This document shows, in pieces, positions 22,246 to 62,796 of a DNA stretch of 64,000 bases. Below the pieces are notes generated by a model that saw only the letters and a list, made by a program, of their open reading frames with translations, searched no databases and had not been told where the DNA came from. Location: contig JASANH010000702.1 in NCBI GenBank assembly GCA_030248295.1, forward strand, positions 80,085-144,084, written 5' to 3'. Origin of the DNA: Mesodorylaimus sp. YZB2_4 (taxonomy: Eukaryota; Nematoda; Enoplea; Dorylaimida; Dorylaimidae). Numbering within the stretch: the stretch's first letter is position 1; each line of letters opens with the position of its first letter. Position numbers and translations under genes: made by a program.

Positions 22246-22257
22246 GTCAAGCGTGCT

Positions 22258-23850: not shown

Positions 23851-23883
23851 TTGCGCATTCGTATGCTGTAAGATTGGATTTTT

Positions 23884-25058
23884 TTAATGCTCTACGTAAG
23901 GCTCATACTTATCATATGCATACTCTCCAGGGCCTGTATCAAATAAGCTACACCCGTAATCTGCGTAAGGTTCGAAAAACAGTTCTCCCAAATTTACATC
24001 GTGATCGTCTTTGTTGACTGCTGCGTTATGCACATCGCGTGAACGCATTCCTTGATTCTGATTAGATCTAGTCTGTCTGCCATGGGAGTAGCTAAATCCA
24101 TTTCTTCCATGAGACTGGTTTTTCTGCCTATCTGCACCTATCTCATAAGGATTCTGATTGGCTCTAGTACTTGCCTGATTGCTATCCGTTAACAGGAATA
24201 GGTTTCTTCCACTCAATCGGTTCTTAGCGACCGGATACAAGAAGCAATTCGCCAACACGTGGTTGTGTCGACCACAGAAGCTGCAGCCTTGTCCGCCATT
24301 GGCTGCCAGTCGGTTGCTGGCTCGACTCATCAACCGGCATTGCTTGAAAGGGTGAGGGAACCCATCGTACTTGCACAACTGTTGTTGCTGAGGAGCCGGA
24401 GTGTTCTGCTGCGCATTTTGAACTTGACTATTGGTCATTCTTCCGCCGCGTTGAAAATTATTCTGTCCTCGAAATCCGCCTCTGCCGCGATTATTATTGT
24501 GGCCCATAACTGCTCTGATGCCGTGTACGATGTCAGACGGCGATGGGTTATTGACAATAGCTGAAGAGGATAACGAAAACATTCTTTGATTAATTTCTGC
24601 GGTACTGACAGCAGTTAAGACATCATCTAAGGTTCTAGCGATGTTCATATAAGCGGCTTTCCACAACTTATAATTTGGATGCGACTTATCGCACACTTTC
24701 AATCCTTCGATAAATCGTTCCTTTAAAACTAATTGCTGAGCTTCCTGAGGTTCACCCAGATAAGCTTGCCTTACTAACGTTTTCAGATCTCTTAAATAGT
24801 CAGCTACGGTTTCCTTTTCTTGTTTCCTCCTATTTGAGAACTCCTGTCGCCAAATTGCTAACTGATGAGGTTGCACTAAGCTTGCTAACAACAAAGCTTT
24901 GGCGCGAGCATGGGTATCAATCTGGTTTGCTTGTGCCCCACGGACAGTATTTTGTGCCCTATCTTTTACAGACTTTTTTAATTCTCGCAAACGAATGGCA
25001 TCATTGATTTCTTCGACTAGGTCAGATAAATACTCGAATTGTTCAAACCACTTGGTAG
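23884..25058 (-). CDS. gag: Gypsy gag (5' end disrupted)
   Basis: Capsid polyprotein of the element. The open frame from 24990 contains HQLAIWRQEFSNRR, VADYLRDLKTLVRQAYLGEP and HPNYKLWKAAYMN, alignable to the gag at 6.8 kb. A CCHC-like finger reads CSFCGRHNHVLANC, followed by Arg/Gln/Asn-rich and acidic tails. Gag homology extends upstream to about 25058 (KWFEQFEYLSDLVEEINDA) in the same frame, but stops close to the primer site remove the initiator region. The gag stop (EH*) lies about 30 nt before the protease frame. Confidence 0.85.
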
Positions 25059-25257
25059 CATCATGACCTAAGTCTCCTATTCATGGATTCTTATCTTAAA
25101 TACGATAAAACGTTCGATTCAAACTTGCTAATGCAGCCTCCATTTTCGCAAGAAAAACAAAACACAACTGATGGCCTATTCGAGGACCTACTGATAGAAG
25201 AAGAGGCACTGGTCTGATTAGCGAACCTAGTGCGATTGACGGCTCTCAAACGGGTAA

Positions 25258-36304: not shown

Positions 36305-37377
36305 TTCAAACATCGATAAAATGAACTATCTGATTGGGCTTCTCAAGGGGGACGCGTTCAAGACCGTCTCATCGTTGTCCGTTACCGAAACTAATTACGA
36401 GGTCACTATTGCCATGCTGGATGAGCGCCATGGAAACAAAGATGTCGTAATTGACGCACATTACACGGCTCTAGCCGATTCGCCTCCAGCATTAAACATG
36501 GAGGGTTTACGCACGGTGATCGACAGCATTGAGCAGCATTTGAACTCGCTGAACGCCTCGGGCGAGGATACAAATTATCGCCACTTTCGTCGTCCAGCTG
36601 GAGAAAGAGCGTGACGATAATGAGGAAGAGTGGAACGTCAACAAATATCGAGACAATTTTCTGCGCCATATCAAGCTGTATGAAATGGCCTATCAGAAAC
36701 CTGATGAGTTCATACCTCAAACCCTCAGCACAGCAACAGTCAAAACCCTCGAAGCATCGTTTCACAATCTAGCAGGTAAGCGCACTTCTCGTTTTACTGC
36801 AAGTTCGCTTATTTCGCAGACTCAGTCGTCTGGAGATGCAAGTTCACGATCAGGTGGTCAGCAGCATCGCCCTTTTCGCGAAGGCACAAATCAAGCTCGT
36901 ATGGGTCAATTAACGAATCGCCTAGTCAACCAGTCCAGTCACAGCGACCGCACCGCCACCATCACACAACACGTCGGGGAGTGTCCCTTCTGTGAACGAA
37001 AAGGTCATTTTGCCGACGACTGTCGCTCAATTCCTGACTTGTCTTCTCGACGGGAGAAACTGAAGTCCAAGCGCCTTTACCTGAATTGCCTCGGCCCTGG
37101 TCATCACTTCCATCACTGCCTTCGCACAAAGCCATGCTTCACATGCAAGAAGGTCAAAGATCACCATTCTAGCATTTGTCCTGACAAATATCGCGATCAA
37201 CACAATTCCACAGAAGCTGCATTCGTCGCCAGCAACATGGCATCCAGCAATTCCAGTCGCAACGACCCGACAACCATCCAAAGTTCTCTACTGGCCACAA
37301 ACGAAGTTTCCTTGCTACAGACAGTTACAACTGGCCTCTTATCATCTGACAACAAAACCCAAATCACTGCTCGTTGA
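36305..37377 (+). pseudogene. gag: BEL/Pao element 3 gag
   Basis: Capsid and nucleocapsid of a BEL/Pao element from a lineage different from elements 1 and 2. It starts mid-capsid at DKMNYLIGLLKGDAFKTV and continues with VTETNYEVTIAMLDERHG and LRTVIDSIEQHLNSLNASGE. After a frameshift near 36595 the open frame carries a Ser/Gln-rich linker and three zinc motifs: CPFCERKGHFADDC, a degenerate knuckle YLNCLGPGHHFHHC (first Cys replaced by Tyr) and CFTCKKVKDHHSSIC. It ends at a TGA before the protease VFDNGSQRSYI. The capsid N-terminus is missing or lies upstream in pieces. Confidence 0.9.
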
Positions 37378-37932
37378 GTCTTCGACAACGGTAGCCAACG
37401 CAGCTACATTACGGACAAACTGGCCCACGAGCTAAAATTACCCATCATATCTCATGCCAAACTGTCAGTTTTCACCTTTGGCTCTATTCCGCCAAAGGAG
37501 CTTAACACCAAGGTGGCGGAGGTACGCTTACGCCTCCGCGACGGAAATCTCTTTAAATTTTGCGCGAATGTGGTTCCTGCGATCACTGGAAATATTTACC
37601 GGGCCGCGGTGGATACACTTTTCAAGAACTTTCCACTGGCTGATTCAGTGCCTATAAAACCCGAAATTACTCATGTTCATTTCCTCATTGGTTCAGATTA
37701 CATGTGGGATCCAATTACTATGGATAAAATGTCCCTGCTCAATGGCCTGCACCGCATCAGCTCCAAACTAGGATGGCTTTTGGGTGGCCGACAACCAACT
37801 TCAGGATACAGGTCCGCTACTACCTTGTTTACAACGACTCTGTTTACGACTACGTTATCTTTGAATTCTGCATCACCATTCGAGAAGGCGGATCCAGTCA
37901 TTCGTCACGCATTTGATCCGACGTTTTTGTAG
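37378..37932 (+). pseudogene. BEL/Pao element 3 protease region
   Basis: Aspartic protease (A17 type). It begins in one frame with VFDNGSQRSYITDKLAHEL (DNGS at the active site) and continues after a shift with FKFCANVVPAITGNIY, VHFLIGSDYMWDPITMDKM and ISSKLGWLLGGRQPTS. A Thr/Phe repeat (TTLFTTTLFTTTL) replaces conserved spacing late in the region. It ends at a TAG before DLGTIGIKD, where BEL elements normally read on. Inactive. Confidence 0.85.
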
Positions 37933-38071
37933 GATCTAGGAACTATCGGCATCAAAGACTCAGCTTCCGACCCTAGTGATGAGGCCGCCATGAAAGTATT
38001 TAACGACTCCGTCATTTTTCGAAAATGAGCGCTACTGTGTTACGTGGCCGTGGAAAGAAAACGGCTAAGAT

Positions 38072-38837
38072 TTGCCCTCCAATTATCAACTTGCTTTGGA
38101 TCGCCTAAACTCGCTGTTGCAACGTTACAAAACCACTCCCGAGGTCTTCGAGGAGTACCAAAAGGTCATCGACAGCCAATTAGAAAAGGGCATCATCGAG
38201 CGAAAGGATGATACTGTAGCAACTGGAATTTTTAAACATTACATTCCACATCATGCCGTCATCACCCCAGAACGTTTAACAAAATTGCGCATCGTCTATG
38301 ATGGCTCAGCTAAATCTCGGCAAGATCGAAAGAGCCTGAACGAAATGCTTCATCGAGGCCCTGTTATGATCGACGATGTTGTGTCGATCTTAATCCTGTT
38401 CCGACTAAATCCTACCGCTATTAGGGCGGATATTTAAAAGGCCTTCCCCCAGGTCGGACTGCAGGAGCCCGACCGAGATGTTTCTCCGATTTTTGTGGAT
38501 ACGCGATACGAATATTCTTTCCACTGAAAACAACATTCAAGTTTATCGCTTTACACGAGTGCCGTTCGGCATCATCTCCAGCCCGTTTCTTTTGGGTGCC
38601 ACGATCACCCACCACTTACAAAAAGATGGTGGAAAAATTGCACTGAATTTTCGCCATAACATTAACGTAGACAATATCATCACTGGCGTCTCAACTATCG
38701 ACGAAGCCAGGCTATTCTACGACGCAGCAAAGAAACTGTTTGCTGCAGCATCGATGAACCTACGTGAGTGGATGACAAATTCCTCCCAGCTGCTTGAGCA
38801 TATACCGGTGCATTATCGTATGACTGGACCACCTTAA
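38072..38837 (+). pseudogene. BEL/Pao element 3 reverse transcriptase
   Basis: RT core with YQLALDRLNSLLQRY, HYIPHHAVITPERLTKLRIV, YDGSAKSRQDRKSLNEMLHRGP and [16 protein letters not shown] (motif A with a TAA in place of Glu). In the next frame come [20 protein letters not shown] (motif B), [11 protein letters not shown] (motif C, here NVDN rather than YVDN) and [14 protein letters not shown]. Nonsense and frameshift mutations and the altered YVDN box make it inactive. Confidence 0.9.
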
Positions 38838-39059
38838 ATTCTTGGCCCCTGTGGGACCCGGATTCTGATACATTATCGATTAGGGGCCCTACATCTTGCA
38901 ATTTCGCTGCTAATAGGCGCGCCATTCTGCAATTTCTCTTCTCATTTTTCAACCCACTGGGATTATTGTGCCTTATTTTTTGAGCCTGGAAAGATCTTCC
39001 TTCAACGTCTGTGGCTCGATAAGATAGATTAGAATAGGCCCTTTCCAGCTGACCAACAG

Positions 39060-40001
39060 TCCCGGTGGAATGAAATGATCTCTGAGTTTCATCATCTACG
39101 TGATTTTCGAGTACCCCGACTCATTGGCCCACCCCTACAACAAGATGTCACCTATGAACTTCATTGTTTCACTGATGCGTCACAGCACGCCTACGGGACA
39201 CGCATCAATCTCTGAATCATCACTCCAGACCACGTCACATCTCATCTTCTGTTCGGCAAGGCCCGCCTTGCCCCGGTTCGTGGATCTATGACTATTCCAC
39301 GCCTCGAGTTACTAGCTGTTCACATCGGTGTCAAGTGCCTCAACTTTATTGAGCAGAGCTCGCCATTTCCTGTACTACGCAAAATCATTTGGACCGATTT
39401 GAAGTGCGTGCTTCATTGGTTACACTCCGACAAAGCATCAACTGTTTTCGTGCGCAATCGCATTCGCGACATACGCCAGTACCCAGGCATCGAATTCCGC
39501 TATCTCCCCACTACCGACAATCCTGCTGATTTGGCTTCTTGTGGTACAACTGTATCGATCTCATCAAACCAACGACAGTGGTGGCATGGCCCCTCCTGGC
39601 TTTGTGATCATTCTGCTGCTTCATGTCCTGTAACTGACATCGGTACCACGCCAGCTTTACAACAGCCAATCGAATCTGAGAAACAAACAACAACGACAAC
39701 GACAACAACGGTGGCATCCGAAGGTCCTTCGCCAGGAGTTGGAATGTTTATCGACCATCATCCTCATTCATCCCTTACAAAACTGCTTCGTGTATCAGCT
39801 TATTGCCTGCGCGTCTTCGAGAAGAAAACTCGCCTAGACGGCGCGCTGACTAATCCGACCGCCGATGAAATTCGGGCCGCGAAGACTCTGTGCCTCAAGT
39901 ACATGCAAAACAAACATCGCCTTCTCATTCTCGACGCACTCGCAAAGAATCGACCACATCCTTTAATCACGGAGCTGGCATTGTGGATCGACCACGACTG
40001 A
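39060..40001 (+). pseudogene. BEL/Pao element 3 RNase H and spacer
   Basis: The region opens with HCFTDASQHAYGT (first RNase H Asp) in one frame. In the 237-codon frame that follows it continues with MTIPRLELLAVHIGVKCLNF, KIIWTDLKCVLHWLHSDKAS (WTDS-like, catalytic Asp) and FRYLPTTDNPADLASCGTT (NPADL.S). A Thr-repeat and the pre-integrase helix TADEIRAAKTLCLKYMQ and LILDALAKN lead into the integrase. Only the first part is frameshifted. Confidence 0.85.
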
Positions 40002-40773
40002 CTCATTCGCTGTGGCGGTCGCATCCAACATTCCCGCTTGCCAGAGTCGGCCTTACATCCTATTTTGCTTCCTAAGAAAGACCATTTTACCACCCTTATC
40101 ATTCGCAATTATCACCAAAAGCTTTTTCATGCAGGTGTTTCCCGTACACTCTCCCAAATTCGGCATGAGTATTGGATTCCTGCAGGACGTTCGGCCGTTT
40201 TCAACGTTGTTCGTGGCTGCCTACCTTGCAAAAAATTCGATGGAGGTCCTTATCGAGCACCTCAAATGCCCCCATTACCTGCGTCGCGTGTCACCCTAAC
40301 GTCTCCGTTCACAACTGTCGGCCTGGATTACATGGGTCCTGTTCATATCAAGCACCCCTCTCCAGGCTCGCCTGCACAGAAAGCTTGGATTTGTCTTTTT
40401 ACCTGCTTGGCCACTCGAGCAGTTCATTTGGAGTTACTACCATACATGTCTGCGGCTTAATTTCTCATGTGCCTCAAACGATTAATAGCACGACGTGGAG
40501 TCCCTTTTGTGATCATTTCGGACAATGCTCGACAATTCAAATCGGCCAGTTCCACTCTGAAAAAACTGTGCTCCTGGCTTCTTAGTAGTTCTCCCATTCA
40601 GTCGCACAGTAGCGCCAACGGTGGAAATTCATCACTGAGCGTGCCCCTTGGATGGGCGGTTTTTACTAACGTTTAAATCGTCTTGTCAAACAAAGTCTCA
40701 AAGAGACTGTGGGCAGAAGCCTGCTCACGTTTCTTCAACTTAAAACCGTGCTAGCCGATATCGAGGCAATGAT
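40002..40773 (+). pseudogene. BEL/Pao element 3 integrase, N-terminal and core part
   Basis: It runs from LIRCGGRIQHSRLPESALHP and HHCC-finger residues (HQKLFHAGVSRTLSQIRHEY, GCLPCKKFDGG) into the core: TVGLDYMGPVHIK (first Asp), CLFTCLATRAVHLEL, VPFVIISDNARQFK (second Asp). After shifts it reads NRLVKQSLKETVGRSLLTFLQLKTV, then LADIEAMI. A TAA replaces Glu before FLMCLKRLIARRG. The frame stops in the codon after IEAMI exactly where the TTAA element is inserted; the rest of the protein resumes at 47047. Confidence 0.9.
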
Positions 40774-42436: not shown

Positions 42437-45400
42437 TCAAACTTTAGATACGTATTTAGATAAACTCGACGAACGACCTTTATATAAGACATACAGTAGA
42501 TAGATCTCAGACGTATTTGTATGCTCTATACATCTGACTGATGTGCATGCGAGGCTGCGCATTCGAGAGGGCGATTTCGGAACGATTTCTCCAAGATGCG
42601 GAGTACAGCAGGACTTGATCCGAGATTTGCGATGCAGCCAGCGAAGTTTCTTCATTAGGGACGACGGGATAATGTTCGATGCACAAATCGTGGGGTAGGA
42701 CACGATGCAGTTTAAGTTCTTCTCCAAGTCGACTTTCGTCTTGACCAGGAGGCGACCAGGATAGCCGGGGTCAGCGACAGGGAGCGTTTTCATGACTTGG
42801 ACACCGGGAATAGGAGTAAACAGGTCAGCAGGATATGAGCCACCATCGAGGCGTTTTCGTACCAAGCGATTTCGAATTATGGAGGAGGCGACAGGTTGAC
42901 GAATGGGTTTACCGATCCTTTGCCGAATAGCGGGCGGAGTATGCGACACTCCGATGTGTTTCAGGCGAACATCGGCGCCAAAATTGAGAGGGCGAGAAGA
43001 TACATTACGTTTTCGAAGCAGTAAGGAATTCTTTGCTTTGGCCAGAAGATCGGCTTTGCCCAAAAGTGAGGTACTCGTACATCGGATGATGCCCTCTGCG
43101 TCGACGAAGGTGTGTAGATTTGAAATTTTCTTTGATGGCGTACTTTCGCGATTTTGTAGATCATGGGCTACTGTAGCTGCAGGAAGGGAATGTGAATCGA
43201 TGACGTCAGGAGCTGAGATTTTCGAAGGAGTGGGCCACTCGTTGGGCGACTTGAGAAGGAAATCAGGTTCTTTCAAACACGAGATGAGCGTAGCGGCAGT
43301 TTCCAAGGAGTCATATGGCGATGCTGTGTGTGTTGGACTTGAATTTCCGGGAACGAAGCTAGACGAGATCGTAGAGTGTAGATCATTCTCGAACTTGCGT
43401 AGTACCGATTTATCGTTAGCATCAGATGAACAATCGCGAATTCCGATTTGTTCAGGTTTCAAATTTGTCAAAGGATCGGCCATTTTTATGGCATGCGAGT
43501 CGGAAGAGTTCAGACAAGGCGAATCGATTTCAGAATGAGTGTTTGTGAGAAGAAGGGTCGTATGCGAGACGATGTTTGCCGATTCATTCGTAGCAGATGG
43601 AGTTGGTGATCCTCCTTTTCCAGTAAGGATCCACCCCAGACGAGAAGGAATGAGAGATAGCGGAGTGCTTCCCGGCACTGAGACACTGGAGTCAGCGAAG
43701 ATTTGATCCCAGTATTCTGCGCCAATTAGAATGTCGACAATACGGGACTCCGAAGCATACGGAATAGTATCGGCTAGATCGTAGGACTGCAGGAATGTCT
43801 CAGCTTCGGGAGATAGGGTTGCCATCGGGCGAACCGTCGGGTCGGTTATCTTCGGAATCACATAGGCTGTGATGCTGAGATCGAAGCCATCGCGAGTGCG
43901 AATGGAGAAAGCTACCAAGCGGGAACTGAAGGAATTCATGATGCCACCGAAAGAAGAGACGCGAATCTGCTCTGTTCGAATAACAGGAGCACCAATTCGC
44001 CTAGCGAATTCTGAAGAAACGTAGGATCGTTGACTTGCAGAATCAAGTACAGCGTGGCCATCGAAGAACGGCTTTGATGGACCAGAACGAGCGGTGACCT
44101 TGGCGGACAACATGAAAGAAGAGCGGAGAGGACTTGGAGCTATGCAGGATGTTGTTTGCCCAGATGAGGGGCCGGTCGTAGAGTGAGATGTAGCAGAGAA
44201 GGAGGAAGAACCGCAGAGCGAACGATGATGCCTTCCACGGCAAGATGGGCAGTTCTTAGTACTTTTGCAATCACCAATGCGATGACTGCTAGACAGACAG
44301 TTGAAGCAGAGTTTCTTTTCTGAACATTGCTTCTTGCGATCGTTGGGCGTCGGATACTTCGGGCATTCGCTGGGCCAGTGACTACCATTGCAGAGCTGGC
44401 ACATCGGCGGTTTCGTTTGAGAGGACCGAGAGCCACGGTGGCTATTCGTAGCGGGGTTACTTGAAGCGAGGTTCATGGTTGTGAAGACGCGACCATGACT
44501 CTGATGGCTAGCTGGGTTCCGGGCAGGGGACCGGTTCCTTACGCGTTCAGACCTTTCAACTTCAGGGGGCGACGCAATATTACGAGAGCTATGTTCCATG
44601 TATTCCGAGGTTTCGATATGATCTTGGAGTAGGACGATCAGAGATTCGACAGTGAATGGCTTCTTTCCATTTTCTTCGAACAACTTCATTGCGAGACCCG
44701 GAGGGAGTAGGTCTTCAAGCATAATGGCGAGGCTGTGCTCGGTTTGCATTGGAACGCCTAGAGCAATCAGCGAGTTGTTTGCGTTCAGTTCGTCAAAGAA
44801 ATTACGCAGCGCGCGTGCCTCGTTCTTAGGTGCCGTGAGTGCGTGAATGTTCTGCAAGTGCTTCGTGACTATGAGATCCTTTTTCCCAAAACGATCTTCG
44901 ATCGTTTTCAAAGCGACGGCGTAGTTCTCGCTCGTCACGGATAACCCTTCAATAGCCCTAGCGGCCGGACTTCCCTCTTTCAGGTGGGACTTAAGATAGT
45001 GAAGTTTCAAGACATCCGAGAGATCCTCCTGACTATGCACACAAGCCATAAAGGCGTCCATGAACTCCTGGTACTTGGAGGGGGTCCCGTCAAACATAGG
45101 GGGCTCAAAAGAAGGCAATCGTACCTTGTTTCCCTTTTGGACCACTGGAGGCGCGGCGGGAGCTTCAGGGATCGCCAGACGTCGCCGTTCGTTCTCCATC
45201 TGAATTTCGTGCAGTTCCTGGCGACGTTTCCTTTCTTCGCGGCGTTCTTCAATTTCGACTCGACTGTCGAGAATCTTAAGTATGCTCGCGAATTCGGCGT
45301 CGAGATCGTAGTACTGGGAGGACAGTTCGTCGAATTGCGCGATTTCTTCTCGGAAGCCATTGACTTGTTCGTCTTCCGACGCATCGACGAACGCGTTGTA

Positions 45401-45586
45401 CCGAGTTTCATAGGCCACGAACAGTTTCTGGAGTTTCGATTTTGCTAATTCGATCGTAGACTTTGCGTCTGGAATTTCGTCCAGGGCGCAATTGGTTGAG
45501 CCGTCTTTGTCGATTTGAGTAGATCGGAGCGCCTTTCGGAGACGTTCGCGAATAGGACCAAGCTGTTGCCGAGATTTCGAGGCCAT
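42437..45586 (-). CDS. gag: BEL element 2 Gag-protease-integrase remnant, single open frame
   Basis: About 1,050 codons without a stop, starting MASKSRQQLGP. Gag comes first: QELHEIQMENERRR, FEPPMFDGTPSKYQEFMDAF, then zinc motifs CQLCNGSHWPSEC, CFNCLSSSHRIGDC and CPSCRGRHHRSLC. The protease follows with AVLDSASQRSYVSSEFARR, LIGAEYWDQIFA and SRLGWILTGKGG. RT and RNase H are absent: shortly after VLRKFENDLHS the frame passes into NLHTFVDAEGIIRC and KHIGVSHTPPAIRQRI, which belong to the start of the integrase. The integrase finger has lost its second Cys pair (RNRLVRKRLDGG against RGCLPCKKFDGG in BEL 3) and no complete catalytic core remains. The length of the undisturbed frame is striking for a defective element. 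Confidence 0.9.
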   Translation of the reverse strand: MASKSRQQLGPIRERLRKALRSTQIDKDGSTNCALDEIPDAKSTIELAKSKLQKLFVAYETRYNAFVDASEDEQVNGFREEIAQFDELSSQYYDLDAEFASILKILDSRVEIEERREERKRRQELHEIQMENERRRLAIPEAPAAPPVVQKGNKVRLPSFEPPMFDGTPSKYQEFMDAFMACVHSQEDLSDVLKLHYLKSHLKEGSPAARAIEGLSVTSENYAVALKTIEDRFGKKDLIVTKHLQNIHALTAPKNEARALRNFFDELNANNSLIALGVPMQTEHSLAIMLEDLLPPGLAMKLFEENGKKPFTVESLIVLLQDHIETSEYMEHSSRNIASPPEVERSERVRNRSPARNPASHQSHGRVFTTMNLASSNPATNSHRGSRSSQTKPPMCQLCNGSHWPSECPKYPTPNDRKKQCSEKKLCFNCLSSSHRIGDCKSTKNCPSCRGRHHRSLCGSSSFSATSHSTTGPSSGQTTSCIAPSPLRSSFMLSAKVTARSGPSKPFFDGHAVLDSASQRSYVSSEFARRIGAPVIRTEQIRVSSFGGIMNSFSSRLVAFSIRTRDGFDLSITAYVIPKITDPTVRPMATLSPEAETFLQSYDLADTIPYASESRIVDILIGAEYWDQIFADSSVSVPGSTPLSLIPSRLGWILTGKGGSPTPSATNESANIVSHTTLLLTNTHSEIDSPCLNSSDSHAIKMADPLTNLKPEQIGIRDCSSDANDKSVLRKFENDLHSTISSSFVPGNSSPTHTASPYDSLETAATLISCLKEPDFLLKSPNEWPTPSKISAPDVIDSHSLPAATVAHDLQNRESTPSKKISNLHTFVDAEGIIRCTSTSLLGKADLLAKAKNSLLLRKRNVSSRPLNFGADVRLKHIGVSHTPPAIRQRIGKPIRQPVASSIIRNRLVRKRLDGGSYPADLFTPIPGVQVMKTLPVADPGYPGRLLVKTKVDLEKNLNCIVSYPTICASNIIPSSLMKKLRWLHRKSRIKSCCTPHLGEIVPKSPSRMRSLACTSVRCIEHTNTSEIYLLYVLYKGRSSSLSKYVSKV

Positions 45587-45652
45587 CTTCACACCGCACC
45601 GCCGCCTTCCAGGCGAACCAGTCGACGAAGGGCGAGGCGAAGATTGGACGAA

Positions 45653-45668
45653 CCACGTTCTGCTACCA
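45653..45668 (-). other. Primer-binding site of BEL element 2
   Basis: TGGTAGCAGAACGTGG on the minus strand, two bases from the 5' LTR, identical to that of BEL element 1. Confidence 0.75.
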
Positions 45669-45670
45669 CT

Positions 45671-45959
45671 TGTAGCGAGATAAGCGTTGTGGAAGCGTTT
45701 AGCAGCAGAGAGAATGATCGAACCGACTGCTCTGGTCGGCCGACGACGAGAGACTGAGTATAGACAAACTTCGTTACACTGTCTTTACGGACAAAGGTAA
45801 GCAGGCGACCTCTCTGGTCGGAGACAGAACGAAGAATGAGCCACAGGAGAGCGAACTAGGCATAAAAGAGGGAAAGAGTCAAATCGTAAAGTCAAGGATC
45901 GACGATGCTTCTCCTAGGCTGTAATGTGAGCGTTAAATCCATCGCGCTCCGTCGCGACA
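45671..45959 (-). repeat. BEL element 2, 5' LTR
   Basis: 289 bp, TG...CA ends on the minus strand, followed outward by the ACTAT target duplication. It contains a CTTTTATGC (minus) / GCATAAAAGAGG (plus) segment. No clear TATA box is visible on the minus strand. Confidence 0.92.
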
Positions 45960-50658: not shown

Positions 50659-51930
50659 TCAACATCGACGTGATGGCATCGTCTGCATGTCCCCTGCCCT
50701 ACACTTAACTCTCGCCTGTCTCCCCTGTCCACCCAACAAACCCGTCCTCATAGCGCCTTGTCGCTTCCCTCCAGCAGTAGCCATTCCTGGTTGCCGCCTG
50801 CCCACCCGCCTCTTGTGGCTAGCATTGATCAAGACCCCCTCGTGGTTCAGTCTTTGCCACTTGACGAGCAGTTCACGCTCTCCGTCTTCCGTTGTTCGTC
50901 GACGAAAAATTTTTTTAATTCGGTAAAATCCAGGTGTCACTTTTTGTAATTCTTCCGCATAAAATGTCCCCTCAATCGGTCCAGTGTCCGATGCTAGCTT
51001 GTACACAATCGGTTTACGTCGAACAATAGCCTTGACTTTGAATATTTTGTCTAACCAGGTAGATAAATAGCTTTTATGGAAAGTAAGTCTCTCTTTGGCG
51101 ATGCGAACTGAGTCACCGACTGCGAATTTTGGGTTTTTTTTTCTTAGCATAAATGTGTCAATTCTCAGAATACAAATTTTTAAATATCACATCACTGTTG
51201 TCGGGCGTGCAATTATTTGGCGCCATTTTAGTATGTCGACTGACACTGTTATTGTAAGATTCCACCAACTCAGGCAAGGCTTCAATGTATCGTCGGCTTA
51301 AATTGTAGAACAAGAATTTTAATATTTTTCCTTCCAAATCCGGATAGCACGCTCGGCAATGCTAGCTTTAATTTCGCTAGACGTAGAGTACATGGTTATG
51401 CTCATCTTTTTGAAAATGCCTTTGACTGGTTTATTGTAGAATTGGGTACCGCGATCGACTTGTAACCATCGTGGTCGCTTTGCCTCATCAGCGTACAGGT
51501 TGACAAATGCCTCATGCATGGTCTGTGCACTTTTGTTTTTCACTGCCACCACATACCACTTTTTGCTAAAGGCATCCACCACGATCAGTAGGTATCTGTA
51601 CCCGTCATTCCAGTGCGCCTATTTTTGCATGTCGTCCAAGTCAGCCATATGTAATGGACTAATCTTGGACGTGTGGACTCGATTACGTTGGAAGTGTTGA
51701 CGTTTAGGCTTGACTAGAGTGTACGAGTCAACACCAGACAAAAATTCACGTACATCATTACGTGTTACAGTATGACCAGCACTGATAGCAGCAGCATATA
51801 ATTTTTCGACACAACTGAAACCAGAAACACTGCTAGGATCGGTATACAACTTGAGTAGCTGAGCATCCATTGTACACTGGCATATAAAAATCTTGGATGG
51901 CCAGATAATTTCTACAAAACACACCATCAT
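50659..51930 (-). pseudogene. Maverick/Polinton retroviral-type integrase
   Basis: Integrase of a Maverick/Polinton (adintovirus-like) element; the family includes the C. elegans F54H12.3-like proteins. In order on the minus strand: LYTDPSSVSGFSCVEKLYAA, VREFLSGVDSYTLVKP, HMADLDDMQK (first Asp) then a TAG (51619-51621), VVDAFSKKWYVVAVKNK, LQVDRGTQFYNKPVKGIF (second Asp), SEIKASIAERAIRIWK (Glu). After a frameshift come RRYIEALPELVESYNN and a chromodomain-like tail with KFAVGDSVRIAKERLTFHK, GTFYAEELQKV and ELLVKWQRLN. All three catalytic residues remain, but the TAG and two frameshifts inactivate it. Other Maverick core genes (DNA polymerase B, capsid, ATPase, protease) are not in the window. 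Confidence 0.9.
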
Positions 51931-52029
51931 ATCTTTTGAGAATTGGAGTAGGCGCTTCTTCTTCTTTCTCCTTAGCCTTACTTACAATGGGAGGTACTTC
52001 CAGTGCAATGCCCAATACTAGGTGAGTAA

Positions 52030-52350
52030 TCACGTCGTTCGACTTGATAGCAATCCATTGCAGCTCCTGTACTTGTGTGTCGGACCTCGCATGGAGAAAC
52101 AAATATTGCATTCGAAATAATGCTTGTCGTGCCACTTCTTGTTGAGCAGAGACAGCGTTGTCTGGCAGTACTCGCAGGAATAAGTTTTACCAACTATTTC
52201 GAAAGACGACAGGTGACACAACTGGGCTAATCGTATTCTGCTCATCCTTATACAGACACTGATCACCTGACTGGACAAGTCATAACACGTCACCAGCTCG
52301 CCCGTTTTAGAAAACCTATATAAGTAGGCCAATTTCTGCAAGACACTCAT
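52030..52350 (-). CDS. Possible small zinc-binding protein of the Maverick block
   Basis: From the Met at 52350 a 107-codon frame contains SCEYCQTTLSLLNKKW, then HDKHYFECNIC: two CxxC pairs and paired His that could form a zinc site. An open frame continuing in another phase (51833-52135) reads VLGIALEVPPIVSKAKEKEE, so a frameshift may have split a longer protein. It lies between the integrase and the plus-strand gene, whose TATA box it overlaps. Family unknown. Confidence 0.3.
   Translation of the reverse strand: MSVLQKLAYLYRFSKTGELVTCYDLSSQVISVCIRMSRIRLAQLCHLSSFEIVGKTYSCEYCQTTLSLLNKKWHDKHYFECNICFSMRGPTHKYRSCNGLLSSRTT
52317..52324 (+). promoter_or_regulatory. TATA box for the 52414-52941 gene
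   Basis: TATATAAG, 90 nt upstream of the first ATG. A start about 30 nt downstream would give a 5' leader of roughly 65 nt. Confidence 0.6.
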
Positions 52351-52413
52351 TGTCCTGGTTTTGGTTTGGTCGTGAGCAGTCGGTTGGTTTCTCTCTCCTG
52401 TGAAAGTCGAACG

Positions 52414-52941
52414 ATGGATTCTCCTAAATTTCATCAAAAAGCTTTAAGCGCCTACATGCAATAGGTCAAAGATAATCATCAAGTGGAATTAGAAATGATA
52501 GTACCTCCAGCCTTGCCGGAATCCTTTTATTTACTGGCCAGAACTCCTGGCGCCATTATGAGGAACAAGAAAGGTAGTGGCCAATTATGTGTCAACCAGT
52601 CGGTGTGGCAACCAAGTTTTGGCAATTCCTTGACGGTGGAGAAAATTGCCATGAAAAGAACAAACTTCTATTTGGAGCAAGAGAACGTAAAGTGGAAAGT
52701 GAAACAGTTTAGCCATGTCAGTTTAGCCTGTCAGAATATTATGATGATGTTTGGTTATGAAAATATGGACCTGATTCGTCACAGTGACAGGAATGGAAGT
52801 ATTTTAATTGTATCTGTCAGGTTGGATAGAGATATCTTTTACAGTTATATGGATGCTTTAAAGAATTATCTGAATCAAGTATGGATTGTATCGATTTTGG
52901 TCAGTGATGGATTTATGTTTCTGAGTGACTTGAGAATGTAA
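52414..52941 (+). CDS. Unknown small protein of the Maverick block (in-frame TAG at codon 17)
   Basis: The frame starts MDSPKFHQKALSAYMQ, meets TAG at 52462-52464, and then runs open for 159 codons (VELEMIVPPALPESFYLLAR ... LSDLRM). If the TAG is a mutation the original protein had about 175 residues; alternatively translation starts at the Met in LEMIVPP. A TATA box precedes it, and AATAAA overlaps the stop region (52942-52950), so promoter, frame and polyadenylation signal form a compact unit. No known domain is recognised. It is hydrophilic, with alternating hydrophobic residues and no membrane segment. Confidence 0.6.
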
Positions 52942-52942
52942 T

Positions 52943-52950
52943 AAACTGTA
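52943..52950 (+). terminator. Polyadenylation signal after the 52414-52941 gene
   Basis: AATAAA lies immediately after the last sense codon and overlaps the TAA stop, as in compact viral genomes. Confidence 0.55.
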
Positions 52951-53238
52951 TACTTGACTTTTTTCATTTTCTTCCAATACTTAGCTGCTCAAACTCCAGA
53001 TAAATAGGAAGGGACTGGGTTATAAAAACTCATTTGATGGCCCGATGCTGCCACAGAATTTTTCTCTTCTCAATCATTGTGTCAGTTGGGTATGTCCACA
53101 AATGAGCTAAGCTGATTTTATTCCTTCCACAGCATACAGTATAAGCCGTCTACATCTAATTTAAAAAACAAGTAAGGACGCAATCGTTCACTTTGAATTT
53201 TTTCAAAACAATATGTCGTTGACACTGACTCGGTGTTT

Positions 53239-53520
53239 TCAAAGTGCATCTGCGATAGGTGGCAAAGAGGCCGTCGGTTTCATTAGTGAAGCATATATGC
53301 TCATCCCTGGCTGGTCGTATTGTTCGGTTGCAGTAGCGATAGTAGGAGAAGTGTTTTGCTTTGCTGTCCTTGTATTTCGACACGAAAGGTGCCTTAATTG
53401 ACTTGCCAGAATGGTAATGACAATCAGGGCGACAAGACTGAGGATAATCTTTTTCTTATGCTCTGTTCGAAAGTGGATGCGGCAGCTACCATCGACTTGT
53501 TCTTGTCTTTCAGACTCCAT
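53239..53520 (-). CDS. Small single-pass membrane protein of the Maverick block
   Basis: 93 codons from MESERQEQ. Residues 1-24 are hydrophilic. Residues 25-41 form a strong transmembrane segment (IILSLVALIVITILAS) preceded by HKKK, suggesting a type II or tail-in orientation. The remainder is Thr/Ala-rich. A TATA-like box (TATAAAG, 53552-53558, minus) lies about 32 nt before the ATG. The frame ends at a TGA; a shifted frame beyond it is open to 53156 (KFKVNDCVLTCF), so a frameshift near the end cannot be excluded. No family recognised. Confidence 0.5.
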   Translation of the reverse strand: MESERQEQVDGSCRIHFRTEHKKKIILSLVALIVITILASQLRHLSCRNTRTAKQNTSPTIATATEQYDQPGMSIYASLMKPTASLPPIADAL

Positions 53521-53551
53521 TTTTGCAATGACACAACAAAAAATTCACATT

Positions 53552-53558
53552 CTTTATA
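53552..53558 (-). promoter_or_regulatory. TATA box of the membrane-protein gene
   Basis: TATAAAG on the minus strand, 32 nt upstream of the ATG at 53520. Confidence 0.5.
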
Positions 53559-53592
53559 TGCTGTCAGCGCTCACAAAAATAGAAACACATGA

Positions 53593-54057
53593 TCAGTAGG
53601 ACCATAGCATCAAACAAAGCAGCAAAACGGCTAGCCTCAAAGTGACTGCCACTATCTCACAAGTGGTCATTCTTGTATCAATATATAAAATCATAAACTG
53701 ATCCCACGTATGTTCTCTGAACCATAAAGCCAGTTCGTTGGTGCCGTACGATTCCAGAAATTGAAACAGACATTGAGCGCTGGTTGGAGAATACCTGGCC
53801 GTGTGTACGACATAGGCAAAAAAGATGACTATCTTCGTCCAGCTGACCCCGTTGTGGAATATTTTGTTGGCCAATCGTTTGAGACTAGTGATATTCACTC
53901 CTCGCACGTCGACTACTAGCAAGAATTGTCGATTGTTGAGAAATTGATTCACAGCTTTGCGCATGACTGCAGCATACTGACTCGGTGTTGGTCCTGCATC
54001 GCCAACTCCGCATAAAATCAAATAATTTACCACTTGTCTGGTCACCTGAGCAGCCAT
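53593..54057 (-). CDS. Bcl-2-family apoptosis regulator with C-terminal membrane anchor
   Basis: 154 codons, intact, MAAQ start. The Bcl-2 helix order is visible. A BH4-like first helix (VTRQVVNYLILCG) comes first. A BH3-like helix contains MRKAVNQFLNN, with N-x-F where family members have D/N-x-F. BH1 reads IFHNGVSWTKIVIFFAY, matching the F..G..NWG/TRIVAFF consensus. BH2 reads LALWFREHTWDQFMILY, matching the W.....GWD.F..LY consensus. A final hydrophobic helix (EIVAVTLRLAVLLLCLMLW) would anchor it in the mitochondrial or ER membrane. The size (about 155 residues) and compactness resemble viral Bcl-2 proteins rather than long host ones. A TATA box lies about 50 nt upstream. It sits in the same small-gene block as the Maverick integrase, so it was probably carried by that element. 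Family-level role: blocking BAX/BAK-type apoptosis; a pro-apoptotic role is not excluded. Confidence 0.85.
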   Translation of the reverse strand: MAAQVTRQVVNYLILCGVGDAGPTPSQYAAVMRKAVNQFLNNRQFLLVVDVRGVNITSLKRLANKIFHNGVSWTKIVIFFAYVVHTARYSPTSAQCLFQFLESYGTNELALWFREHTWDQFMILYIDTRMTTCEIVAVTLRLAVLLLCLMLWSY

Positions 54058-54105
54058 TCCTGGAGAGCACACTCAAGCAGAATGAGATGCAAGGGTTGCT
54101 TGCAG

Positions 54106-54114
54106 CCTTATATA
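54106..54114 (-). promoter_or_regulatory. TATA box of the Bcl-2-like gene
   Basis: TATATAAGG on the minus strand, 49 nt before the ATG. This predicts a 5' leader of about 20 nt. Confidence 0.65.
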
Positions 54115-54216
54115 GCCGACTGTAGTGGGCGAAGTGTGTTGTGCGACATTATGCGCTGTAAGCATGGTTAGAACAGCTTATGCACAAAACACATACACCG
54201 ATTTATTATCTTACAT

Positions 54217-54540
54217 CTACGGTTTATCATACCTCGGATAAGCGGTTATGACCGCACCATTTTTAGCCACCACGTGAATTGCATTCACAGAGCTATTATA
54301 ACCAATCACTCGATCAAAGTACAGCCGAAAAATGATATCCTTTCTGAATGTGTGCGAAAAGCCCTTTTCCACCGCCTCGTAAATTATTTTTCTCTAATTA
54401 CGAACCACGAAATACGATATGGTCTCTTCTCGCTCTTGCTTGGAAGCATTGGACCGACAGCCATGCACCTTCTTCACCTCCTCCATCGACCATTTGGGGA
54501 CACTGATCACACATTCCGAACAAGAAATCAAAGTCTTCAT
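54217..54540 (-). pseudogene. Unknown 107-codon gene with one in-frame TAG
   Basis: The likely start is the Met of MKTLISCSECV (54540), because the Met at 54582 is only 12 nt from the TATA box. The frame contains VPKWSMEEVKKVHGC, FVVRN, then TAG (54394-54396), and continues in the same frame with RKIIYEAVEKGFSH, VIGYNSSVNAIHVVAKNG and ITAYP to a TAG at 54217. Continuity of plausible coding sequence on both sides suggests a single recent nonsense change. The last third (IGYN...VV...ITAYP) is faintly reminiscent of small barnase/EndoU-fold nuclease domains, but I cannot support that by more than pattern. Confidence 0.45.
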
Positions 54541-54593
54541 CTCAAGGACTAAAATGATTGCTCCATCTGATGCTTGTGACATTTTTGCTCCAG

Positions 54594-54601
54594 CTTTTAT
54601 A
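54594..54601 (-). promoter_or_regulatory. TATA box of the 54217-54540 gene
   Basis: TATAAAAG on the minus strand. CCAAT boxes (ATTGG on plus) lie 50-135 bp upstream, which completes a textbook core promoter. Confidence 0.65.
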
Positions 54602-54609
54602 GTCAGACT

Positions 54610-54910
54610 TTTTGGCGAAGCTACTCGGACGAAGCTTCTTTGCATCTGATTGGCTATCGGCTTTGGGCGAAGCTAGTCCACGCATGTGATTGGTTATTGG
54701 CTATGGGCGAAGCCATTCGATGCACCTGATTGGCTGATGTCTTTGGGCGAAGCTTAGATGGGCGGAGCTGAGGCAGGCGAAGCTTGGGCGGGCGAAGCTG
54801 AGGCAGGCGAAGCTGGGGCGGGCGAAGCTGAGGCAGGCGAAGTTGGGACAGGCGAAGCTGAAACGGGCGAAGCTAAGATAGGCGAAGCTAATGTGGGCGA
54901 AGCTGCTCAA
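54610..54910. repeat. CCAAT-containing and GGCGAAGCT repeat array (enhancer-like)
   Basis: About three units of roughly 55 bp (TGATTGGCTATCGGCTTTGG then GCGAAGC) are followed by about ten 15-bp units (GGCGAAGCTGAGGCA and variants). Each longer unit carries ATTGG, i.e. CCAAT on the minus strand, placed upstream of the TATA box at 54594. The Ser-Phe-Ala-Cys frame across the array is a by-product. Confidence 0.85.
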
Positions 54911-55659
54911 TCGAAGCTCGAACCTGATTGATCGAAGGCTTATTCTGTTCAGCATACACTAGCACTGGATTTTGAATTCGCGCCAAGGCCTAGTTTACAA
55001 TCAGTCTTTCCAAACTGCTATTATATTTTTTTTATCAGACATTACAACACACACCAAATCAATGGCTAAAAATCGACCATGCACGGGTCATCCATGAAAG
55101 GCGCAAGTTCAGCTTCAGCGCACAAGCGCTGAATACAGGTCAACGCGGCATCGACCTGCGCGTTCTCGGCGACGTTGGTGGTGGTGGCGAAAGATGGCGG
55201 GCCGTGAGATGGAGGGGCAGCGGTGGTGGTGCTGCTGGCGTTGGTGGCTGTTTCTTCGACCAGCTTTCTCTAAAACGGTCGATACGGGCGCTGAGAACAA
55301 GAAGAAAATGTTGGCACTGTTTCGAGGTCACTTCTATAGCTTTCAGTAGATCGGTAGTCTCCACCCAGCTCTAATCATACTCGTAGAAGCCTGAACTACA
55401 TAATCAGCTGGCCTAAGAATACAATACTGTACCTAAGTAGTCAAAGAGAATGTGACACTGCTTTAGTTACGTCATTATCCCCTGATATATGAGGTCTTAC
55501 TGTAGGCTGAGTCTCAACCCAATTTTTGGCATGCCCAAAGGAGCCTTAGCTGACCTATTCTTACAGTAGTGTGCCTATGCACAAATCGTCAGTTTGAGAA
55601 ATCACTTACTTTGTGTAATAGATGCCTCCAGTGGTTACTCTATTTGCATGGGGCATCTA
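54911..55659 (-). other. Mostly non-coding; weak 74-codon frame 55140-55364
   Basis: The minus-strand frame from 55364 (METTDLLKAIEVTSKQCQHF) becomes Pro/His-rich after 35 codons and has no TATA box or known domain. Otherwise nothing was found. Confidence 0.3.
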
Positions 55660-55770
55660 GTGTGAACAGAGGCACATCAGACTATTTGTCAGACATCTAG
55701 TGTGCACACGATGCACAGACTATCTGTCAGACACCCAGTGTGCACACGAGGCACAGACCATTTGTCTCCC
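55660..55770. repeat. Short tandem repeat, about 46-bp unit
   Basis: CATCTAGTGTGCACACGATG, then GCACAGACTATCTGTCAGAC, and variants are repeated about two and a half times. Confidence 0.7.
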
Positions 55771-56346
55771 TCCCTGGTCAGGGCCGAGCTGACTGGTTTC
55801 CCTAACATGCGAGGGATTGATATGACTAGTCCTTTGACCCCGAGCATCGCCTATATGAAGGCCCTGCTCCTTGCCTGAAAAATTCTTCTTATTTTTCTGG
55901 CTTTTACGTTTCTTGGACTATTGTTAAAGACTTTTCTTAGCTGGACCAGCCTTTCCCAACAAAGAGAACAAATATAATCGATCAAAGGCGGTTATTTCTA
56001 GCGCGTGGCTGATCTGCCATGATCTGCCATGAAACTTATTTTTACCGTGTGCGCGACGTCTGGTAGCTTGTTGCTTCTGCGTATGTCAATACGACATCAT
56101 TTAGCCATACAGTAATTCACTCTGCGCATTTTTTCATCAATTTTTGTGAAATTGATCACTGATCAAAGTTCAGCCGATTTTGATCATTATTTTCAGTCAT
56201 CGTAGCTCTAACTGGTGCAAAGATTATTCAAAATTTCTTTTTAAATTCTGTTCGTATGATACTAGAAAGTATGTTTTTAGTCTTTTTTACTTTATCAGCA
56301 AAAGCAACATGATCACAGCTTATTCGATCGACTGAAAAACAAAAAT

Positions 56347-56401: not shown

Positions 56402-58880
56402 ATGCCGAAAAGCAATAAGGTGTCGGCGGACGATGCTGTAATCGACCTCGTTCAAGTAGGAGATGAGTTCGATGCGCTTTTTGGAAATAAAGACGGTGAT
56501 TCTAATGAGGAAGAATTTGGTGGTGGTAGTGAGATGATGGATAGCGATCATATCGATCAAAGAGATATTGGTAAGTCTATCAAATGTTAGTTCTCACTTG
56601 GTGTGGGAGTTCCAGATTTGTTATGCATTGTGAGCTTTGTTATCCTTGATCTACGAATAATCGATCGATCGATTGATCGATCGATTCCCAGGTTCAGTGA
56701 TCGATTGAAGTAAATTTTTGAAGGAGACAGCTTTTCGATTTCAGACGCTGTAAACCGAATGGAGAATTTGATGAACCATCTGTTGACGGAAACATCCGAC
56801 GATAATGATCAAGAGGATCAGATCGGCGCTATTGGTGATCAAAACGACCGAAATGAAGGAGTGCGTGATCAAGAGGGTCAGATAGCGCTATTGGTGATCA
56901 AATCGACCGAAATGAAGGAGTGCGTGATCAAGTGGCAGCAACTGCAACAAGGCCAAAGCGTACAGCTGTGAGGAAGACGGCGAAAGCTGCCAAGCCATCG
57001 GTTCAATGGAAAAGAAGCCCTTTCGTTGAACCGGCGGGGGGCGAGTTCAAGGGGAAGGTAGATGAAGATGTTCCGAACTGGCCATTACCGACGCCATTGG
57101 AATACATAAAAAAATTTATTTCGGAACCAATGCTGACCTTGATGGCCACTGAGTCCGTTCGATATTATACCCAGGTAAGACTGCACTTGTTTTGTTTTTG
57201 GTACAGACTTATAAAAGGTGTTTTGATGATACATTTTCAGAGATGCCGGGCTAGTTCTGCGCCGCCCATTTCTAATTCAGCAGCTTCCAGCTGCCGTTCG
57301 GCTGATTCAACAAGCACCTTGGTCAGTTCGAGAAGTGCGTCACTTAGTAGTAGAACTCGTGTCGCAAGATCGATTTCGGTTTTTGATGCGGAATCTGCAT
57401 TTTGTCGATACAGAGGATGCGACTGAAGAGATCAAGGAAGATCGGATTTGGAAAGTGCGTCCATTTTTGGGGCTTTTGCAAGAGGGATTTTTGAAAGTGA
57501 CCCCGACCAAGCAACAATCGATCGATGAGCAAATGGTCGCCTTCAAGGCCTGGCATGGATTGAGGCAGTTTCTGAAAGATGAGCTGATCAGGTTTGGCTT
57601 CAAGGTGAAACATAAGCTGTTTCGTCATATCCAGTCACTCCAATATTTCTTCCTATTTAGGTGTGGGCCAGAGCGAGCCCCGATGGATTTGTACACGATT
57701 TTGAAGTATATTAGGGAAAGGCAACGGATTTGGAAAAGAATCAAGCAGACGAAATTGGAGTGAATTTGAGCGAATACGCTGTGGGCAAAATGTTGCGCCA
57801 TCTTCCTCCAAATTGCAGCTATAAACTGTACGCCGACCGGTATTTCAGTGGCATCAAACTGGCGCGTTATGTCTTGGAACGTGGTGACCACTTCACTGGT
57901 AAAATAAATCTGCATTACTTCTTACAGTATTTTTGAGTATTAGTGACTGTTCTTGCAGGAACTATTTTGTCTAATCGATTGTGTGGCGCCACCGACCAAA
58001 AGCAGAAGATCAAATTGAAGAGCAATGCCGAGTTGGAGAAAGAGGGCCGTGGCTCATTCGATGCGTTGACGACAAGCGATGAAAAAATCGCTCTAGTAAA
58101 ATGGATAGACTCTGGCGTTGTCCATATGATCTCGACCATACATGGAGCTCATCCAGTTTCGACTCGCCAACGAGCGTAAGTTTCTTGATTGATTTACAGT
58201 ATTGTGCTCTAGTTTACAATAAGTTTTTGAATTTGGGTTTATAGAATCAAGAACAAAGAAGGAAAATGGGCGAAGATAAATGTGCAACGGCCAGCCATGA
58301 TCAGCCAGTACAACGCGAACATGGGCAGTGTCGATCTCTCCGACATGTTTCGCTCTAAATATTTCAAATCGATCAAATGTCGCTGATGGTAAGTGATTTG
58401 ATGCAAAGCATTACACTTATGGCACAGTTTATTATTTAGGTATTTGAACCTTTTCCACTACGGCATCAATTTGGTGATCAGACACGCTTGGGTTTTGTAC
58501 AAGCGAGATTTCTCGAGGATCTGGGGCGAGGGCGATTTGGATCAAGAACCTCCCAAGATGATGCCTTTGTTTGATTTCGTCGACGATGCTTGTCGATCGA
58601 TTCTGCTAGAGGCGGCCACTTTGCGCACGAGCTCCTCGCTTCGATTATCAGCGGCTGGCACATCGAGGCCCGACTCTATCTGATATGACGGGGTTGGCCA
58701 CTGGCCCGTATCGATTGTCGAGAGTGCCAAATGTGATGATGGCCGAAGCCGACGTTCAACGTGTCCAGTATGCAAAGCCAGAGGTCGGCGATCCGAGACG
58801 AACACGTTTTGTAGCAAGTGTGATGTGGCGCTTTGCATTACAGAAGGAAAAACGTGTTTCATTGATTATCAGACGAAGCA
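56402..58880 (+). pseudogene. piggyBac-type transposase, spliced, inactivated
   Basis: DDE_Tnp_1_7-type transposase. An acidic N-terminus (MPKSNKVSADDAV) is followed by an intron (56571-56744). Core blocks include MRNLHFVDTEDATEEIKEDR, KVRPFLGLLQEGF, SIDEQMVAFKAWHG (first Asp), DGFVHDFEVY then TAG (57712-57714), LYADRYFSGIKLARYVL (second Asp), GTILSNRLCG, MISQYNANMGSVDLSDMF (third Asp) and WYLNLFHYGINLVIRHAWVL. The C-terminal Cys-rich domain reads CPVCKARGRRSETNTFCSKC in another frame. Introns with good sites are seen at 57175-57240, near 57900-57958, 58178-58244 and 58389-58439. Damage: a 60-bp tandem duplication near 56819-56937 whose second copy lacks one base, the TAG above, a TGA before WYLN (58384-58386) and shifted frames. 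All three catalytic Asp are preserved. Confidence 0.9.
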
Positions 58881-61845: not shown

Positions 61846-62796
61846 ATGCCGTCTAGCGACGCAATACGTCTCCCCCCCAGCCATGGCCATATCGATCCTG
61901 TTCGCAGGATCGATCGATCGGAAAAATCGGCCAAATCAACCGTCGCTACAACGACTTTCGTCGCTACAACAACATTCGTCGCTACAACAACATTCGTCGC
62001 TACAACGACAGGCGCCGCGCAACAGGGTACCTCCGACATTTTAGCGGAAATTTTAAAACGCCAGAATAACTAAATCGTTCCATCACTACGATCGATAGGA
62101 CCTACACACTAATTACTAACACCAATTTTCACAACAGTGAGCCCTCTAGCGACAGACCCGCCCTCTACACAAAACCAACCAATCCATACTACAATAGCTG
62201 ACATCATTCGACAAAAACCAATCGATGATCGAGTCCATCGAATCACAAACCAGCCCTATTACAATATAAACTCACGTCTCAACCAAAAAGCTCATTTATT
62301 CGGAATGTTAATGCTTCTAAGGATTATAGCGGATCTAATGGCGTCACAATCATCAACAGCCAGAATGGAATCGAACGACCAACTTAGAATGATCATCCGA
62401 TATTGCATACAATTGAAATTTCGCGAATTCGGCCTCCTTATCCCATACGCTCCCACCAAGATCGAGTTCTGCGTACAATGGGCGAGCCAGAAATACGAAG
62501 CGACCTACAATTTTAATCGGATCATTACATTTATCAATCAAATGCGAATCACATTGAAAAATGGTCAGGCAAAAATTGTGAGCATATGTTCTACTGTGTT
62601 GAAACGTGGACAGATCACGTACTGGCGTGCTATCGCATTCTTTGTGTTCATTCAATACTTAGCCATTACCTTTTATCAACGCGATATGTTCGATCACATT
62701 GATGCTATAGAAGACTGGGTCCTAAACGCGTCCTTAGCCTACGAGTTCGATCTGAATGGACTGCTTTGCATGTACTCAGTTGCCGTCAAAAAATGA
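61846..62796 (+). CDS. Second Bcl-2-like protein, probably two exons
   Basis: The 3' exon (62138-62796) encodes a Bcl-2 fold. A BH4-like helix reads QLRMIIRYCIQLKFREFG. A BH3-like helix reads IEFCVQWASQKYEATYNF, followed by FINQMRIT as in AAQLHVT of the family. BH1 reads VLKRGQITYWRAIAFFVF (G...W.R.IAFF.F). BH2 is weaker (IEDWVLNASLAYEFDLNGL). There is no C-terminal anchor. An upstream ATG frame at 61846 (Ser/Thr-rich, with FVATTT repeated three times) joins in phase if an intron 62027-62137 (CAGG|GTACCT...TTTTCACAACAG) is removed, giving about 279 residues. Otherwise translation may begin at the Met of FGMLMLLRIIADL, giving about 163 residues. It is clearly a different paralogue from the 53.6-kb protein. 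Confidence 0.75.
61930..62010 (+). repeat. 18-bp tandem repeat coding for FVATTT
   Basis: CGTCGCTACAACAACATT occurs four times with small differences and lies within the first exon of the Bcl-2-like gene. Confidence 0.85.

Follow-up and report, generated by a model that had tools for sequence, protein, structure and literature searches.

A Bcl-2-family gene as a recurrent component of Maverick/Polinton-type elements in the nematode Mesodorylaimus sp. YZB2_4

Organization of the locus

The window analyzed here is a stretch of 64,000 nt from Mesodorylaimus sp. YZB2_4 (C231:80085-144084, in a genome of 145 Mb). The common nematode spliced-leader pattern, sought with one mismatch allowed, gave no match. 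Its minus strand contains an intronless gene of the Bcl-2 family (53593..54057), termed type A in the following, which runs from ATG to stop and encodes a protein of 154 amino acids with BH1- and BH2-like motifs and a hydrophobic C-terminal tail (mean Kyte-Doolittle value of 2.39 for residues 133-151). On the same strand, a TATATAA motif (54108..54114) begins 57 nt 5' of the ATG. The uninterrupted 154-codon frame, the C-terminal anchor and the separate TATA box, all proposed in a first-pass annotation of this DNA, were recovered, the anchor in the form of the hydrophobic tail. Across 22 type A loci including the window, TATATAA is located 57 nt upstream of the gene in six cases and 70 nt upstream in one, TATAAAA is found at 54-59 nt in four and at 90 nt in one, and neither pattern is present upstream of the gene in ten of the 22. 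When the 3 kb around the window gene were shuffled by mononucleotide 500 times, an ATG frame of at least 154 amino acids arose in 10 cases. Consequently, frame length alone is weak evidence and the case for a Bcl-2 gene is carried by homology; it is homology, not length, that rules out a chance frame.

Similarity common to other copies defines a Maverick element fragment of about 5 kb around this gene (50850..55877, no strand assigned). Since the match of five other copies starts at exactly position 50850, the copy in the window is cut at this point, and no inverted repeat of at least 60 bp flanks the fragment, as expected of a truncated copy. Adjoining Bcl-2 is the gene of a one-pass membrane protein (53159..53520, minus strand), which comprises 119 amino acids in several relatives and whose match is split over two frames in the window; part of it is cysteine-rich. 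A small gene designated UP (54226..54540, minus strand) is situated upstream of Bcl-2. The small gene P6 (52465..52941) occupies the plus strand, opposite to Bcl-2, and is followed on the minus strand by P5 (52030..52443), in which a CxxC/H pattern was judged by eye to be zinc-binding. The integrase had been described as broken, and its parts indeed occur in separate frames of the minus strand: an N-terminal part at 51619..51981 and a C-terminal part at 50659..51186, which shows a weak chromodomain match (E = 0.0087) and loses its similarity to other copies at 50850. The contig carries another copy, with 99% protein identity to the window Bcl-2 and 95.5% DNA identity over 4.4 kb. What the window retains is a truncated remnant, whose Bcl-2 frame is presumably still open because the copy is young.

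Elsewhere in the window, long frames resembling, by eye, Gypsy and BEL/Pao retroelements and a PiggyBac-like transposase are found at 6646-7806, 13425-17000, 19511-25080, 36553-40460, 42437-45784 and 56869-57763, and a frame of 291 amino acids on the minus strand (4760-5635) appears C-type lectin-like by eye.

Homology to the Bcl-2 family

The annotation of the gene as a Bcl-2 homologue is supported by profile searches. The window protein matches PF00452 with an E-value of 1.4e-4 and a score of 22.8 bits, which falls short of the 31.4-bit cut-off, and the type A copies L029 (31.9 bits) and L030 (33.4 bits) exceed this cut-off. A phmmer search of the PDB returned Bcl-xL as the top match (E = 1.7e-4), the alignment covering residues 52-127 with the BH1 and BH2 regions in order and at the right spacing. 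A profile built from 10 type A copies matched 146 PDB sequences at E ≤ 1e-3, again with Bcl-xL at the top (3.4e-8), and each of the best 60 of these 146 matches is either a member of the Bcl-2 family or a fusion containing one. PF00452, and no other Pfam family, was matched at E ≤ 0.01 by 23 of 23 aligned sequences, of which 11 are the window gene and copies retrieved with its sequence as query; the other 12 (types B, C and D and host genes) had been selected partly on Pfam matches and do not constitute an independent test.

The first-pass annotation had listed BH3-like, BH1 and BH2 motifs in this order. A BH1-like motif, NGVSWTKIVIFF, is present at a position where five host-like genes have W(G/S)RI, the R of the BH1 core (WGR) being absent from the window copy, and the BH2-like motif WFREHTWDQF corresponds to W(I/V)xxxGGW in the same five genes. 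The BH3-like part did not hold up to the same degree, as it is positional only: VMRKAVNQF is aligned with VMRALGDEF of the host gene C80, and no G-D pair of the BH3 core L-x3-G-D is found in it. The nearest host-like gene, C82 (TMRRMVEQI), likewise carries no such pair. The BH3 core is not required for membership of the groove-type Bcl-2 proteins, and the loss of its G-D pair would be in keeping with a binder of BH3 ligands, as opposed to a killer acting via a BH3 of its own.

Single-sequence AlphaFold models reached a mean pLDDT of 50.3 for the window protein (P0001) and 40.3 for P0002. With the low-confidence P0001 model, Foldseek returned no match at E ≤ 0.001, and the best Bcl-xL row appeared at rank 6 with an E-value of 1.1. 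A search for outside homologues of P0001 among 5.8 billion proteins yielded 29 candidates, none of them at E ≤ 0.01, and viral contigs searched with the window protein, the 10-copy alignment and the capsid-like protein described below yielded no relatives.

Genomic copies and gene order

A genome search with the window protein produced 48 matches, which were merged to 33 loci at E ≤ 1e-3, and gene order was read in 22 of them. The most constant neighbor is the membrane gene, which in 19 of the 22 loci lies on the Bcl-2 strand, downstream of that gene, at a distance of 365-570 nt from center to center. P6 is found on the opposite strand in 17 loci, P5 near Bcl-2 in 16, the N-terminal part of the integrase in 15 and its C-terminal part in 11, and UP upstream of Bcl-2 in 12. 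A capsid-like gene is present on the Bcl-2 strand in seven loci and on the opposite strand in two more, and a packaging ATPase in five and two, respectively. These loci are partly dependent, as C216/C960 and C604/C964 show identical match scores and the two C231 proteins are 99% identical; many are truncated through decay, at contig ends or by the extent read, which necessarily depresses the counts for distant genes. One of the 22 loci, L024, contains none of these neighbors. In three loci, a gene designated POLN lies upstream of Bcl-2; it is a frame of 436 amino acids with C2H2-like fingers (L010:218-1528 and relatives) and may be either a further element gene or the N-terminal part of a polymerase.

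Fourteen of the 33 loci are located within 10 kb of an ATPase or capsid-like gene among the matches listed (binomial 3.9e-12, with all 269 ATPase and capsid-like matches listed as background and the clustering of repeats ignored). The recurrence of the same neighbors in the 22 loci leads to the conclusion that type A Bcl-2 belongs to the regular gene set of a Maverick lineage. The earlier guess that the gene had been Maverick cargo is thereby substantiated: elsewhere in the genome it lies beside integrase, ATPase and capsid-like genes and at one locus beside the polymerase, and it was not found as an ordinary host gene in a conserved setting free of Maverick genes.

At locus L028 (C713:1-10000), Bcl-2 and the membrane gene stand in one row with P5, pieces of the integrase, a gene of 128 amino acids, a capsid-like gene of 432 and an ATPase of 214 amino acids, and three small genes; the other strand carries a polymerase frame of 698 amino acids. 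The ATPase (L028:5347-5991) matches Pox_A32 with 24.3 bits, above the cut-off of 22.8. A full-length relative of the integrase (L025:3840-4958) matches Chromo above the cut-off (4.6e-6) and rve slightly under it (6.3e-7, 30.0 bits, cut-off 32.6). The polymerase lies outside the part of the element retained in the window and was found together with Bcl-2 at this one locus among those read; polymerase-like pieces were also noted by eye in L034. The frame itself (L028:7749-9845) has no Pfam match at E ≤ 0.1 and no match in the PDB. Its homologues P0008 (55%) and P0010 (32%) match PF03175 (DNA_pol_B_2) at 2.1e-10 and 1e-10, respectively, which marks the frame as a family B polymerase, putatively protein-primed. 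Comparison of polymerase and ATPase with phage families gave weak matches only. The 432-aa gene preceding the ATPase has no Pfam match, nothing meaningful in the PDB and nine homologues, all without a named function; its place, size and a motif suggest a capsid protein. Genome-wide, at least 151 ATPase and at least 118 capsid-like matches were counted, with pieces counted separately, and the genome is rich in Maverick-type elements. Near-identical Maverick-type copies were observed on several contigs.

Host-like relatives and the origin of type A

A Bcl-2 profile search of the genome gave 50 matches, 20 of them above the cut-off, two of these only together with their neighbors. The strongest matches are located on C80, C82, C2, C217, C29 and C546. 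In all five host-like loci that were read (C80, C82, C2, C217 and C29), a GT splice donor follows straight after GGW, and these are therefore taken for host genes; none of the five is accompanied by an ATPase, capsid-like or POLN gene among the matches listed. In a tree of 21 rows, which excludes C217 because of its long branch, type A groups with C82 at support values of 100/99 (99/96 with C217 included), so that the phylogeny against host Bcl-2 genes called for earlier places type A with a host-like gene. In BLASTP comparisons, the window protein exhibits 28% identity to C82 over 124 residues and 18% identity to C80 (E = 0.095), and a profile comparison of type A with three host genes gave an E-value of 2.6e-11. 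C82 differs from the element gene in having the splice donor after GGW and an NWGR core, whereas type A reads through this position without an intron, has SWTK instead and carries its hydrophobic tail in frame. The position in the tree and the read-through of the host splice donor argue for a captured host gene, and in the simplest reading type A is apparently a processed, intronless copy of a C82-like gene.

Other Bcl-2 types

A second Bcl-2-like frame, type B, is located on the plus strand of the window (62305..62796 within an open frame at 62113-62796) and matches PF00452 at 1.8e-5 (25.7 bits). Type B has 23 matches genome-wide and forms a separate branch in the tree. At its copy on C1061, an ATPase match lies 1.7 kb away on the other strand, and type B is perhaps a Maverick gene as well. 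A cysteine-rich, secreted-looking frame was noted by eye just downstream of type B in the window and in L036-L038.

Types C and D comprise 12 short Bcl-2 frames found by profile search; all types were named before the first tree was made. In eight of the 12, the matches listed include an ATPase on the same strand no more than 0.3 kb downstream of the frame; none is listed as near at C475, C540, C14 and C483. Nine of the 12 loci (all except C566, C483 and C811) were read. In all six loci with enough flank (L042, L043, L046, L047, L050 and L051), which were picked partly by the nearness of an ATPase, the ATPase follows Bcl-2 on the same strand. These ATPases were named by their similarity to that of the type A element, the Pox_A32 match being 15.9 bits in L047 (below the cut-off) and absent in L051. 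Maverick lineages other than that of type A, situated on other contigs of this genome, possess Bcl-2 frames of their own immediately ahead of the ATPase. Type C in L042 matches PF00452 above the cut-off (36.5 bits). Types C and D form one clade (97/97) and share the place before the ATPase. AU tests, performed with C217 left out, rejected a common clade of A with C/D (p = 0.0016) and of A, B and C/D (p = 0.0053), and also a grouping of the four host genes (p = 0.0067); with the long branches in this tree, they are good but not final evidence.

Selection

The 12 Bcl-2 copies compared give 66 pairwise comparisons, in many of which dS is saturated. Deeper pairs yielded dN/dS values of 0.36 (window-C216), 0.29 (C88-C216) and 0.38 (C246-C216), and a second clade of copies 0.49-0.74. 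Bcl-2 is constrained over the longer run. Close pairs gave 0.70 (window-C466), 0.91 (window-C246), 1.12 (window-C88) and 1.55 (C246-C466), values which rest on few changes and carry no significance test, and the window gene differs from the second C231 copy by a dN of 0.006 with zero synonymous changes. The adjoining membrane gene shows dN/dS of 0.20-0.27 where measurable, including 0.27 in C246-C466, and stays below Bcl-2 in the same pairs. As the close-pair values of Bcl-2 range from 0.70 to 1.55 while the membrane gene is at 0.27, recent constraint on Bcl-2 is not supported. The high values may stem from post-insertion neutral drift, from relaxed or diversifying selection, or from recombination.

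Proposed function and alternative explanations

We regard it as probable that type A is an accessory gene of Maverick/Polinton elements, derived as an intronless copy from a host Bcl-2 gene, whose product blocks apoptosis of the host cell. As judged from its sequence, the protein is likely a tail-anchored, groove-type death blocker. It would sit on mitochondrial or ER membranes by means of its hydrophobic tail, and the groove formed by BH1 and BH2 would bind pro-death BH3 proteins of the host. While the element is replicating, integrating or producing particles, its host cell would thereby be spared from apoptosis. The membrane target, the binding in the groove, the anti- rather than pro-apoptotic action and the time of expression are all deduced.

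That the window gene is an ordinary host Bcl-2 gene lying by chance beside an integrase remnant is very improbable. Its frame is open and its nearest row in the tree is host-like, but the gene recurs at 33 loci with Maverick neighbors in the 22 that were read, it lacks an intron at the place where all five host-like loci read have a donor, and the host-like genes themselves are situated on other contigs, without Maverick genes among the matches listed. The repeated element context leads to the rejection of this identity. Derivation from a Maverick followed by domestication of the window copy, as an antiviral or survival gene of the host, is quite unlikely. The persistence of an open frame and a TATA box while the integrase and the membrane gene are broken would fit this scenario, and the first-pass annotation had suggested, as one of two possibilities, that the host kept the gene; against it stand dN/dS values of 0.70, 0.91 and 1.12 relative to C466, C246 and C88, although based on few changes, and the near-identical second copy on the same contig, from which no synonymous change separates it. 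Rather improbable, too, is a pro-death protein or a Bcl-2-fold protein with a non-apoptotic role, for example in autophagy or calcium regulation. Proteins of this fold are known to include killers and members with other roles, and type A does not retain the WGR core of BH1; yet it lacks the BH3 core required by killer proteins, and the known viral Bcl-2 proteins are mostly blockers.

Since a common clade of the element types was rejected, the tree suggests that Bcl-2 capture by Mavericks probably happened more than once. The competing explanation, a single Bcl-2 gene inherited by all elements with types A, B and C/D having merely diverged fast, is doubtful. It draws on the fact that all types are short, intronless and placed on long branches, that both C and D are positioned ahead of the ATPase, and that a profile comparison of A with C/D gave a probability of 4.3%, so that sequence says little at such depth. 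The AU tests count against it, not only for the element types but also for the four host genes, whose grouping was rejected as well, and the places of the gene in the element differ between types. Multiple capture is also the basis of a broader scenario, which is speculative and of low probability: host Bcl-2 would have been taken up at least twice and perhaps three times (A, C/D and B) and kept as a survival module that, besides aiding the production of particles, acts selfishly in the germline. In this scenario, germ cells with an active element would escape quality-control apoptosis after integration damage, and the element would bias its own transmission.

The presence of type A in these elements bears on the question whether Mavericks of animals are to be seen as transposons or as viruses that have an infectious phase. 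A captured and probably re-acquired death-control gene is what would be expected of elements that burden the host cell as viruses do. One small protein offers a concrete handle on the germline persistence of such elements in animals, and the same genome gives access to the likely family of donor genes.

Comparison with known systems

Bcl-2 genes are well known in DNA viruses, namely adenoviruses, herpesviruses, poxviruses and iridoviruses. Type A resembles these viral genes as a small captured gene with BH1 and BH2 kept, but its carrier is an integrating Maverick/Polinton and its capture a separate one. Among related systems, a preprint describes anti-apoptotic genes in mammal-associated adintoviruses, a related class with PolB and integrase (PMC11071296); "bcl" occurs zero times in its main text. 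A BCL2-like motif is described for the planarian Burro retroelements (PMC6431247), which are likewise mobile elements with a Bcl-2-like domain but differ in that it belongs to the polyprotein of a giant Gypsy-like retroelement rather than to a Maverick. Vertebrate Mavericks share the core genes for polymerase, ATPase, integrase and capsid, which are flanked by accessory regions (PMC8097293), and the main text of that report contains "bcl" zero times. No report of a Bcl-2 gene in a Maverick/Polinton was found in the literature searched, which does not prove its absence in print. Viral Bcl-2 is thus a known kind of gene, and what is new here is probably its Maverick carrier and its recurrent capture.
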